From contig SYKE01000241.1 of assembly GCA_005798285.1 (NCBI GenBank), positions 1 through 34,178 of the forward strand: a stretch of DNA of 34,178 nucleotides, read 5' to 3'. The stretch is from Actinomycetota bacterium. GTDB taxonomy: Bacteria > Armatimonadota > SYMT01. Positions 27,838 to 33,067 of the stretch are shown piece by piece. The notes beneath the pieces are model-generated. The model worked only from the letters and a program-made list of their open reading frames with translations. It had not been told where the DNA came from and did no database searches. The stretch's first letter is position 1; each line of letters starts with the position of its first letter. The translations under genes were made by a program, and so were the position numbers.

Positions 27838-27860
27838 CTGGGGGCTCCCTGGAGGCAATG

Positions 27861-28922
27861 ATGCGGCGACCAGCGGTTTCTTGGGGTACGAGCCGGGGGT
27901 GTTGGATCGCAGGGATCGGCATCCTCGCCATCCTCGCGGGATGCGCCGGCTCGCGAAGTTCCAAATCCAGTGCTCCGGGAGAAGCGAGTCCTGCCGGTCT
28001 GATGGACCAATCTGTCGCCGATTCCACGCCCAGCTCAGAGGCTCCGGGGGGCGGAGATCCCAACGAATTTGCGCGGCAGATGCAGACTGTGGCCCCCATT
28101 GCCCCCAGTTCGCCTGCCCGAAAGCGCATGAACGGGGACCCATACGCGGGGGGGGAGGCCCCCACCATAGGCTCCCAGGAGCAGCGGTCGTACCAGCGCA
28201 AGATCATCTACACCGCCGAACTGACCCTTGTCGTTCCGCGCCTGGAGCCGGTGCGGGAGAAACTCCTGACGCTGGTGCGATCGGCGAAGGGCTATGTGGC
28301 GAACAGCAGCGTGAGCGGATCCGCGGGAGAAACCCGATCGGCGCACTGGACGCTGCGAGTGCCGGTCTCGGCATATGGCAAGTTCCTCAGCGACGTGGCG
28401 ACGCTCGGGGAGGTCCAGACTCAGTCGAGCGACTCGCAGGATGTGAGCGAGGAGTTCTACGACGTGGAGGCGCGGCTCCGAAACGGCCGGGCAGCCGAGT
28501 CTCGGCTACTCGAGCATCTGAAGCGGAGCGCGGCCCGGCTTTCGGACATCCTATCCGTCGAGCGTGAACTGACGCGGGTGAGAGGCGAGATCGAGCAGAT
28601 GGAAGGACGCATTCGCTTCCTTCGGAATCAGACCGATCTCACGACGGTGACCCTCACCATCAACGAGGCACGGGAGTACGTCCCCCAGTCGCATACCAGT
28701 TTCTCGGCCCGACTCGGCCGAACCTGGACATCCGCGCTGGAGAGTGTCCGCGACGCCGGTGCCGGCATCGTGCTCGGGCTCGTGTTTGCGGCGCCCTGGA
28801 TCGTGATCTGGGGAATCGTACTCTTCATCCTCTACCGCGCCATTCGGAACTGGATTGGACGCCGAAAAGCAGCTCGCAGCGCAATGAGCGAAGGAACCTC
28901 GACCCCGCCTTCCCAATCGTGA
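27861..28922 (+). CDS. DUF4349 lipoprotein with C-terminal membrane helix
   Basis: The product is about 353 residues. The leader has a lipobox (ILAGC, the Cys becoming the lipidated N-terminus). It is followed by a low-complexity Ser/Ala/Pro linker (about 30-110) and the DUF4349 domain (about 112-275, KIIYTAELTLVVPRL, then APVSAYGKF-type strands and a coiled-coil-like ERELTRVRGEIEQMEGRIRFL). It ends in a hydrophobic helix (about 300-325, IVLGLVFAAPWIVIWGIVLF) and a basic tail. The domain has no assigned enzymatic role; the layout suggests a lipid- and membrane-anchored envelope protein. GGAGG at 27851-27855 fits the ATG at 27861 better than the one at 27858. Confidence 0.88.
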   Translation: MRRPAVSWGTSRGCWIAGIGILAILAGCAGSRSSKSSAPGEASPAGLMDQSVADSTPSSEAPGGGDPNEFARQMQTVAPIAPSSPARKRMNGDPYAGGEAPTIGSQEQRSYQRKIIYTAELTLVVPRLEPVREKLLTLVRSAKGYVANSSVSGSAGETRSAHWTLRVPVSAYGKFLSDVATLGEVQTQSSDSQDVSEEFYDVEARLRNGRAAESRLLEHLKRSAARLSDILSVERELTRVRGEIEQMEGRIRFLRNQTDLTTVTLTINEAREYVPQSHTSFSARLGRTWTSALESVRDAGAGIVLGLVFAAPWIVIWGIVLFILYRAIRNWIGRRKAARSAMSEGTSTPPSQS

Positions 28923-29018
28923 TGTGGTTTCCGGTTGAGACGGATGTGCGTCCTGCCACCGTCTTTACACGTTGAAGGCATAGTGTCTGTCGTTTGTCGA
29001 CGGAGGATCTACTCGAGC

Positions 29019-29447
29019 ATGAACATCCGATCATGGGTGGTGGGAGCGAGCGTTTTCGCCGCCTGCGTCGGTCTGGCTGTGAGCCAGAGCGACGCCCAGA
29101 TCAAGGCGGGCAAATCTCGCCCGCTGAAGACCAAGCACCTGATGTCCGCGGTGGTGGTGACCAACTGCGGCGCGTTGCGAAAGGCGCTTGACGGGGCCGG
29201 CCCGGCCGATGACCAGGCGTGGGAAGCGGCGGAGATCAACGCCGCTCTGCTGAACGAAGCCGGTCACAGCCTGATGGCCGACGGGCGATGCCCGGATGCC
29301 ACCTGGGCGGCCGCTTCCAAGGCGCTTCAGGACGGTGGGGCCGCTGCTGTGGCGAAAGTCCAGGCCAAGGATGTCGCCGGCGCGAAGGAAGCGCTCGGCG
29401 TTGTCCTGGGCTCCTGCAAGTCCTGCCACACCGCCCACAAGAAGTAG
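29019..29447 (+). CDS. Small periplasmic c-type cytochrome with C-terminal heme motif
   Basis: The 142-residue product has a signal peptide (MNIRSWVVGASVFAAC, cleavage near SDAQ). The mature chain is Ala-rich and helical, and the single heme motif CKSCH (Cys133, Cys136, His137) sits a few residues from the C-terminus. That placement is typical of cytochrome c' four-helix bundles, which bind heme with one axial ligand and may sense or detoxify NO. No second axial Met is evident near the heme. GGAGGA lies about 12 bases before the ATG at 29019; the frame is open to 28935 without coding character. Confidence 0.82.
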   Translation: MNIRSWVVGASVFAACVGLAVSQSDAQIKAGKSRPLKTKHLMSAVVVTNCGALRKALDGAGPADDQAWEAAEINAALLNEAGHSLMADGRCPDATWAAASKALQDGGAAAVAKVQAKDVAGAKEALGVVLGSCKSCHTAHKK

Positions 29448-29531: not shown

Positions 29532-31130
29532 ATGCTGACTGTCAGCCGCCGCGTGCTTCTGGGGTCCGGACTCGGCGCCGTTTTGGCCGGTCCGGAACTG
29601 GTGCGGGCCCAGGGTCGAACCGGGCAGGTCTTCGGGAATCCGGAGGCCGCCGTGGTGGGCAACCGGGTGCTGGCCCAGGGCGGCACGGCTGCTGACGCTC
29701 TCTTTGCCGCCGCCCTGATGGCGGCGGTGGTTTCGATCCACAACTGCGGCTTCGCCGGCTACGGTGGGACCGCCACTATCGCCCGGGGCGATGGGACCCC
29801 TCCGGAGTGCCTTGACTTCAACTCCACGGCGCCGGCCGCCGCGCGGCCGGACATGTACTCGCTGCTCCCGTCCGGCGCGGTTGAGGGCGGCTCCAACACC
29901 TTCGGTTGGCTGGCTGTAGGAGTGCCCGGCATCCCCGCCGGGCTGGATCAGTTCCATCATCGGTATTGCACCCGCTCCATGGCGGAACTGGCGGCGCCCG
30001 CGATCCGTGCGGCGCTCGATGGATTTCGGATGTCGGAAGCGCCTGCCCGCGCAATCCAGGCCGGAATGAAGCGAATTGCGGTCGATCCCGGCGCGGCGGC
30101 GGTGCTCCTCCCCAGCGGGCGGCCGCCCGTGGTGGGCGAGACCTACCGGAATCCCAGGTTGGGAGAGTTGCTAACCACCCTAGTTTCACGCGGATCGCTT
30201 CAAGGCTTTTATGAGGGAGAGATCGCATCTCGAATTGCGGCCGAATTCAAGAAACGCGGCGGGTTGGTCACGTCCGCAGATCTGGCGGCCTACCGTGCCC
30301 TGACGCCGAAACCCTCAACGGCTGCGCTGAACGGCTTCGTGATTCACACGCCTCCGCCCACCGCCGGCGGCGCCACGGTGCTTCAGGCGCTGCTCGCCAT
30401 GCGCGAGATTGAACTCCGACAGAAGTGGGACTCTGGGCAGCACGCCCATGCAAAATTGGAGGCCCTTCGAGTCGCCTGGGGAGACCGGCTTCGAACCATT
30501 GGCGACCCGGCGTTCGTCAACATCCCTCTGGGGCGGCTCCTTTCCTCCGAGTATGCCGAGACCACCGCACTCAAGGTGATCGCCGCGGTGCAGAACCGGG
30601 CGCGACTCGCCGTGGAGACCGACGGTCGCCCCGCGGGAGGAACGGTCAACCTCTCTGCGGTGGATAAGACCGGGACCGTGGCCGCCCTGACGCTGACCCA
30701 CGGAGGCGGTTTCGGCGCACAGGTCGGCATGAGCGAGTTCGGACTGATCTTCGGACACGGGATGTCCCGCTTCGACCCCCGGCCGAGCCATCCCAATTCG
30801 CCGGGGCCCGGCAAGCGCCCGCTGCACAACATGTGTCCGACGGTGGTCACCCGCGGCGGCAAGCCGGTGCTCGCCATCGGCGGAGCCGGGGGCCGCAAGA
30901 TCGTGAACGGAGTCTTCGACGTCCTCTACCATGTCTTGAGGAAGCCGGAAGATCTCGTGGGAGCCCTCGCGGCGCCGCGGATGCACACGGAAGGCGGTCT
31001 CGACCTGTGGCTCGACTCGAAGTGGGAGGACGAGACCGCAGGGTACCTCGTCGACCTGGGGTATGCGGTGAAGCGCTCCGCCATGGCGAATATCAGCGCC
31101 GCACAGCCCGCCGATGCCCAGCCCAGATAA
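29532..31130 (+). CDS. Gamma-glutamyltransferase-like Ntn hydrolase, altered substrate pocket
   Basis: The 532-residue precursor has a Tat-type leader (SRRVLLGSGLGAVLAG), so it is probably exported. It would self-cleave before Thr371 (AGGTVNLSAVD), the expected Ntn nucleophile. Around it VAALTLTHGGGFGAQVG, PGKRPLHNMCPT and GGAGGRKIVNG follow GGT. Key pocket residues differ from classical GGT: the arginine that binds the glutamate carboxylate (DYRE in the E. coli enzyme) is replaced in DFNST (Asn97); the TTH near the nucleophile is TVN; the NNEMDDF region is GHGMSRF. Glutathione hydrolysis is therefore doubtful. GGAGGAATCGC precedes the ATG. Confidence 0.88.
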   Translation: MLTVSRRVLLGSGLGAVLAGPELVRAQGRTGQVFGNPEAAVVGNRVLAQGGTAADALFAAALMAAVVSIHNCGFAGYGGTATIARGDGTPPECLDFNSTAPAAARPDMYSLLPSGAVEGGSNTFGWLAVGVPGIPAGLDQFHHRYCTRSMAELAAPAIRAALDGFRMSEAPARAIQAGMKRIAVDPGAAAVLLPSGRPPVVGETYRNPRLGELLTTLVSRGSLQGFYEGEIASRIAAEFKKRGGLVTSADLAAYRALTPKPSTAALNGFVIHTPPPTAGGATVLQALLAMREIELRQKWDSGQHAHAKLEALRVAWGDRLRTIGDPAFVNIPLGRLLSSEYAETTALKVIAAVQNRARLAVETDGRPAGGTVNLSAVDKTGTVAALTLTHGGGFGAQVGMSEFGLIFGHGMSRFDPRPSHPNSPGPGKRPLHNMCPTVVTRGGKPVLAIGGAGGRKIVNGVFDVLYHVLRKPEDLVGALAAPRMHTEGGLDLWLDSKWEDETAGYLVDLGYAVKRSAMANISAAQPADAQPR

Positions 31131-32083: not shown

Positions 32084-32125
32084 TGCTCGATGTGAGTGAC
32101 GTTCCCCGCTCCTCAGAGGCGCTTG

Positions 32126-33067
32126 ATGACAGTTGCGAGATGGCTGGTTCTGGTCTGCACCCTGGTGCTCTCGGCCGCAAGTGTTGGGTCGCAGGAGGCG
32201 CCGACTCGATTTTCGCGCGCCGAGTTGGGCGGCGAGGCGGTGGAGTTCTCTGCGATCCCCGCTGGCGAGTTTTTGATGGGGACGGACGCCGAGGAGGGCG
32301 CGCGGATCCAGTCGCGTCTCGATCTCGTGGTTTCGCCCGACGAGGCCCCGATGCACCGTGTCAAAGTCAGCGCGTTCGAGCTTGGAGTGACCGAGGTGAC
32401 ATTGGGCCAGTACCAGGCGTACTGTCGAGCCACCGGCAAGGAGATGCCTCGACAGGAAGAGTGGAACAGCACGCCACAGCATCCGGTCCACTACGTGAAC
32501 TGGGACGAGGCGGTGGCCTACTGCGCCTGGGCTTCGAGCGAGTTGAAGCGACAGGGCCAGCCGGGAACCATTCGCCTTCCGACCGAGGCCGAATGGGAGT
32601 TCGCCGCACGGGGAAGGGACACGGGCGTCAACGGCCGCGCCCGAAAACTATTCGTTTGGGGAGACGACCTCCCCCGAACGGAGGCGCCCGTCGCCAACCT
32701 CTCGGACGCCCGCACCCGATCCGCCTACCCGAAACTGAATGCGAAGTTCTTCTTCCCGAACTACGACGACGGCTACGCCCAGGCGGCCCCGGTCGGCAAG
32801 TTCCCGGCGAACTCCTACGGCCTCCGAGACATGGCCGGAAACCTCTGGGAGTGGTGCCAGGACCGCTACGATCGCGAGTATTACGCCCGGAGCCCGCTGG
32901 AGAATCCGCGGGGCTCGGACAATCCCGAGGACGGCGCCCGAGTCTTCCGCGGCGGCTCGTGGTATGTCAGCCCGACCTCGCTCAGAGTCTCCAAGCGCAA
33001 CTGGAGCGGCCCCAGCTTCCGCTACCTCTTCGTCGGCTTCCGTCTCGTCCGCTCGGCACAACCGTAG
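32126..33067 (+). CDS. Exported formylglycine-generating-enzyme/SUMF1-type protein
   Basis: The 313-residue product has a signal peptide (MTVARWLVLVCTLVL, cleavage near SVGSQ) followed by the FGE-sulfatase domain: IPAGEFLMGTD, FELGVTEVTLGQYQAYC, HPVHYVNWDEAVAYCAW, IRLPTEAEWEFAARG, YGLRDMAGNLWEWCQDRYD and the final FRGGSWYV with VGFRLVR. The two cysteines used by aerobic FGE in the segment before the C-terminus are not evident (this segment reads RVSKRNWSGPSFRYLF). A true sulfatase-activating role is therefore doubtful; many bacterial homologues are lectin-like or scaffold proteins. No sulfatase is nearby. I chose the ATG at 32126 (AGAGGCGC upstream) over the GTG at 32096. Confidence 0.88.
   Translation: MTVARWLVLVCTLVLSAASVGSQEAPTRFSRAELGGEAVEFSAIPAGEFLMGTDAEEGARIQSRLDLVVSPDEAPMHRVKVSAFELGVTEVTLGQYQAYCRATGKEMPRQEEWNSTPQHPVHYVNWDEAVAYCAWASSELKRQGQPGTIRLPTEAEWEFAARGRDTGVNGRARKLFVWGDDLPRTEAPVANLSDARTRSAYPKLNAKFFFPNYDDGYAQAAPVGKFPANSYGLRDMAGNLWEWCQDRYDREYYARSPLENPRGSDNPEDGARVFRGGSWYVSPTSLRVSKRNWSGPSFRYLFVGFRLVRSAQP

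Follow-up and report, generated by a model that had tools for sequence, protein, structure and literature searches.

The GGT-like gene of the window, the 34,178-nucleotide stretch of DNA analysed here, encodes a protein in which all six side chains that hold glutamate in E. coli GGT are replaced by a different, conserved set, and which sequence comparison places in a distinct, widely spread branch of the known superfamily. Its substrate is very likely something other than a gamma-glutamyl amide; another substrate is favoured because the non-glutamate donor site is conserved in 39/39 complete sites among close relatives. A fuller reading is that of a Tat-exported, self-cleaving Thr Ntn-hydrolase of GGT fold, acting on an amide with an acyl part that lacks a free alpha-amino group and probably bears an acid, and this we regard as about evenly poised between right and wrong.

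The gene occupies 29532..31130 (+) as an open frame with an ATG start and the stop codon included, its position exact, and encodes 532 aa; all features described below lie on the same (+) strand. Homology of the protein to PF01019 is far above chance. The Pfam G_glu_transpept model matches residues 45-517 at 358.7 bits (E 7e-107), against a gathering score of 27 bits for this GGT superfamily (MEROPS T3-like), and many GGT-fold PDB structures are matched by sequence. With the NCBI GGT equivalog TIGR00066 the protein scores 265.7 bits, short of the cut-off of 357.85. An AlphaFold model (mean pLDDT 82.5) supports the Ntn-hydrolase fold that the first-pass annotation had proposed: comparison of the whole chain gave Z 43.2 to 2nlz and 42.7 to 4y23, which are tied, then 41.9 to 2e0w and 39.8 to LmbA2991 (6j3a), and Foldseek likewise matched the model to the GGT fold.

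Both superfamily hallmarks, a Thr nucleophile opening the small subunit and a GG oxyanion hole, are found in the alignment at T371 and G453-G454. T371 is aligned with the nucleophile of E. coli and B. licheniformis GGT, chain position 1 of the mature small subunits, and is present in 41/41 close relatives, as expected from the earlier claim that this residue is kept. The claim that the cleavage context is kept holds for the nucleophile and not for the residue before it, which is Gly (40/41 close relatives) versus Gln in E. coli and Glu in B. licheniformis. From the aligned site, an autoproteolytic cut into two chains would be expected between G370 and T371 (30639..30644), and the putative small subunit would span residues 371-532 (30642..31127), aligned mature small chains starting at query residues 371/372. 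T389 (30696..30698), the counterpart of E. coli T409, is kept in 40/40 relatives with letters at this column. G453 and G454 align with E. coli G483 and G484 and are kept in 38/38 relatives with letters; R455, which follows them (30888..30896 for the three residues), is Arg in 32, Thr in 5 and Val in 1.

According to PMC6769717, E. coli GGT binds the alpha-carboxylate of glutamate through R114, S462 and S463, and its alpha-amino group through N411, Q430 and D433. Alignment with an E. coli reference chain that is the T391A mutant finds 0/6 of these side chains kept. At the carboxylate side, R114 is replaced by N97 (29820..29822; Asn in 40 and Asp in 1 of 41 relatives), S462 by H432 (His in 33, Asn in 6) and S463 by N433 (39/39 with letters; 30825..30830 for the pair). 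At the alpha-amino side, N411 is replaced by G391 (30702..30704; 40/40 with letters), Q430 by G410 and D433 by R413 (30759..30770 from G410 to R413; both 39/39 with letters), the last a reversal of charge. The assignment of columns is supported by spacing, since the 43 residues from T371 to F414 equal the distance from E. coli T391 to F434. After F414 comes a loop (30774..30812) of 13 residues, in 39/39 members with letters, versus a 23-residue stretch with the lid loop in E. coli, and this difference offsets the later columns by ten. B. licheniformis GGT also has 13 residues in this loop. Three motif changes in the first-pass annotation were reproduced: Arg of the DYRE motif to Asn (DFRE to DFNS in the alignment, at N97), TTH to TVN (residues 371-373), and the NNEMDDF stretch to GHGMSRF (NNQMDDF in the alignment; residues 408-414). 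Beyond these, the serines of the PLSSM motif, S462/S463, correspond to H432/N433, so that none of the six donor-site side chains is left unchanged. The description of the glutamate-binding residues as lost is correct as to their absence, but what stands in their place is another fixed set, found in a large branch and not in one gene.

Close relatives were sought with a nine-row profile (A1). The 41 non-redundant members (frames 300 aa or more in length with scores of 545 bits or higher, fragments L043 and L109 being dropped) were selected by overall score and not by pocket, and eight also served as rows of the search profile. Every one of the 39 with a complete site reads [N/D]-G-G-R-[H/N]-N, spelled NGGRHN in 32, NGGRNN in 6 and DGGRHN in 1. 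Across 26 full-length proteins, invariant positions make up only 63 of 524 columns, and these include G391, G410, R413 and N433. At E values up to 1e-130, close relatives occur in 25/293 genomes of the order of L037 (a Pedosphaera record), 9/297 genomes of the class of L041 (a Planctomycetaceae record) and 3/299 genomes of the class of L047 (an Acidobacteria record). In the window's own phylum 54/291 genomes match the profile at 1e-90, and the score range of the close clade is reached only in G000 and G001, from one family (816.8 and 731.8 bits; next 476.5). This patchy distribution of the close clade suggests horizontal transfer or loss.

A tree of 92 proteins, computed without 20 motif columns, contains one branch of 42 rows (SH-aLRT 98), made up of 39 with [ND]GGRxN and the near variants L009, L059 and L066; within it the close clade forms 26 rows, all NGGRxN, with support 100. 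FastTree on 102 rows agrees, with a 44-row set of which 40 are NGGRxN (support 96). Fragments are left out of both trees, near copies out of the 92-protein tree, and HpxW (5hft), an oxamate amidohydrolase, out of both, being represented by its small chain alone. The phylogenetic comparison suggested at the outset thus separates the window's branch from the canonical GGTs, from YwrD-like proteins (2nlz, the B. halodurans 'cephalosporin acylase', and its kin) and from LmbA, the rows of all of which are placed on the other side of the tree. Two other groups were observed in passing. L059 and L060 (in G232 and G231), near the branch, have Leu in place of D433 and Asp in place of R114 (DGGLNN) and represent a further pocket variant. 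L014, L015, L018, L020, L004 and L023, in which R114 is replaced by His, Pro or Ala and the N411 column falls in an 'LTH[ST]LGSxSG' motif, are a separate non-canonical pocket class on their own branch.

The N-terminus carries a predicted twin-arginine signal (SRRVLLGSGLGAVLAG...VRAQ; 29532..29609, with the R6-R7 codons at 29547-29552), in which a twin-Arg n-region and a hydrophobic stretch are recognizable by eye. R6 and R7 are aligned in 40/41 close relatives, two of the 40 (L134 and L167) being doubtful by eye, and are invariant among the 26 full-length close-clade proteins. This aligned count replaces a Tat-signal pattern that was positive in 20 of 31 close-clade rows (9 without it and 2 truncated) and also matches 3/25 canonical rows and 3/33 other rows. 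Wider-branch members are without the motif by the same pattern (0/17), and the Tat signal therefore appears to belong to the close clade. TatC is present in 14/16 genomes tested and was not found in the window's own genome, which is 69% complete. The signal agrees with the export proposed earlier for this enzyme, and the Tat system would be the probable route.

Six PF01019 matches occur in the window's genome, including the window's own and L001-L004, one of the six being a contig-end fragment. L001 has the REEDSS pocket of B. licheniformis GGT and scores 519.3 bits to TIGR00066, and L003 (G000:C212:2227-3858) has the QGRMTT pocket of LmbA2991 and scores 461.9 bits to 6j3a, so that it is possibly an LmbA-like enzyme in the window's lineage. 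A PF01019 search of nine other host genomes found a paralogue with a canonical-type pocket in six (G291, G292, G293, G295, G297 and G299, with L086, L089, L091, L088, L090 and L087, respectively), and none among the loci read in G294, G296 and G298. With six of nine host genomes and the window's carrying one, the branch appears usually to be accompanied by a normal GGT. All-against-all ORF comparison around 19 loci and around 39 loci (the 39 including the window) found no conserved neighbour gene, and the neighbours, of which ten were compared with Pfam, therefore give no clue to the substrate. Sulfatase-like, ABC ATPase and prepilin-like starts recur near the loci, as seen by eye from ORF starts, at distances that vary. 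A link with phage defence was considered and dropped, there being no PADLOC match. In the window itself, the gene directly upstream (28935-29444, +) encodes a small protein with a C-terminal CKSCH motif and a weak cytochrome c' match below the Pfam cut-off (26.1 vs 26.5); farther upstream (27858-28919, +) lies a DUF4349 protein (207.6 bits), and downstream (32096-33064, +) a protein with an FGE-sulfatase (SUMF1-like) domain (187 bits).

For an acylase of this kind, the precursor would cut itself between G370 and T371, and T371 would attack the carbonyl of the amide; G453/G454 would hold the acyl-enzyme, as their counterparts do in GGT. The alpha-amino side is rebuilt, all three glutamate-holding side chains being gone in favour of two Gly and one Arg, and at the carboxylate side the Arg and serines have given way to Asn, His and Asn. 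The simplest candidate is an acyl group that bears an acid and lacks the amino group, because no ligand for an alpha-ammonium group is left and an Arg stands in for D433. R413 could perhaps reach this acid, which might be glutaryl-, succinyl-, oxalyl- or sulfonate-like, and the bond would be hydrolysed outside the cytoplasm, in an open site that has no lid. There are two precedents in engineered GGTs. The D433N substitution in E. coli GGT is described as bringing in glutaryl-7-ACA acylase activity (PMC8062742), and D406N of PnGGT, which matches D433N, is described as hydrolysing glutaryl and 4-sulfobutanoyl amides (PMC11421214). LmbA2991, or LmbA, is a non-glutamyl Ntn-hydrolase of GGT fold that cleaves itself, cleaves a C-C bond and handles an oxalyl group (PMC5519988).

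The proposal in the first-pass annotation of another amide or acyl substrate thus draws support from the fixed non-glutamate donor site (39/39), but gamma-glutamyl chemistry may persist. The protein could still be a hydrolase of glutathione or gamma-Glu peptides that holds glutamate by other contacts, which we consider rather unlikely though deserving of weight. The fold and catalytic core are kept, and L037, a sister within the close clade, exceeds the TIGR00066 cut-off (371.2 vs 357.85 bits). Extremophile GGTs are described with Ser at R114 and His or Thr at the two serines, native PtGGT, one of these enzymes, as hydrolytic only, and the mutants D445A of BsGGT and D433N of EcGGT as retaining 40% and 82% of hydrolysis, respectively (PMC8062742). 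Against such an activity, however, six positions are changed together, with the charge reversed at D433, and are fixed in 39/39; the window protein itself lies below the equivalog cut-off, and its genome carries the canonical paralogue L001. An enzyme of oxalyl or oxamate type, with amide or even C-C cleavage, is brought to mind by HpxW and LmbA, two known non-glutamyl relatives, which both handle oxalyl and have an additional Arg in the pocket, in place of Q430. In the window protein, however, the Arg occupies the D433 column, with Gly at that of Q430, and LmbA and the YwrD-like proteins branch elsewhere in the tree (in which HpxW was not included), so that this assignment is improbable.

With R114 gone from the carboxylate side and Arg in place of D433 on the amino side, the charge has moved across the pocket, which might alternatively be a mirror of the GGT donor site, in an enzyme hydrolysing gamma-D-glutamyl amides of cell-wall peptides, e.g., gamma-D-Glu-mDAP, or of poly-gamma-D-glutamate. 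R413 would take the alpha-carboxylate where L-Glu puts its amino group, and N97/H432/N433 would face the amino group, possibly acylated; the signal motif and open lid-less site would suit such a role. If true, the branch would be an enzyme family of its own, exported and hydrolysing gamma-D-glutamyl bonds by means of a GGT pocket with swapped charges. It is a long shot: E. coli GGT itself is described as taking D-glutamine as donor (PMC8062742), so that D-donors need no such pocket, and no cell-wall gene was recognised beside the enzyme. That the six changed binding residues mark a degenerate, non-enzymatic GGT relative is very improbable. The nucleophile is present in 41/41 and the oxyanion glycines in 38/38 with letters, and the alternative pocket is uniform, whereas degeneration would have scattered the changes.

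Database calls for such genes would tend toward a glutathione-degrading enzyme. Because genes of the branch can pass the GGT threshold, as L037 does, glutathione degradation may have been wrongly assigned in Verrucomicrobia, Planctomycetes and related groups. Among the papers searched, judged by titles and the beginnings of abstracts, none describes the [ND]GGR[HN]N pocket or the branch; Verma 2015 (PMC4568574) sorted 47 proteins into six named GGT clades, and Verrucomicrobi-, Acidobacteri- and Planctomycetes do not occur in its main text. With the acylase reading favoured here, the fixed pocket would offer a clean natural parallel to the engineered GGT acylases, and the branch a candidate source of exported Ntn acylases with unusual specificity.

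In comparison with known systems, the window protein shares with canonical GGT (E. coli 2e0w/2dbu and B. licheniformis 4y23) the fold, the Thr nucleophile, its partner T409, the GG oxyanion hole and a predicted two-subunit layout, and with 4y23 the short 13-aa loop. It differs in the six donor side chains, the Gly before the nucleophile and the twin-Arg signal, at ~30% identity. Class IV cephalosporin acylase and the engineered D433N GGT likewise have D433 replaced, but by Asn, where the window protein has Arg (R413) and five more changes. His at the S462 column is common to 2nlz and HpxW, and 2nlz further resembles the window protein in the absence of R114 and in GGTV at the cut site. Its pocket, however, is S-Y-R-N-H-T and it forms a separate branch with its kin, and the small chain of HpxW reads Y-R-A-H-T; where HpxW/YwrD-like proteins have the signature S-[YF]-R-x-H-T, the window protein has NGGRHN. 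LmbA2991 (6j3a) differs in both pocket (Q-G-R-M-T-T) and branch, and the window protein falls with LmbA-type enzymes in neither respect.
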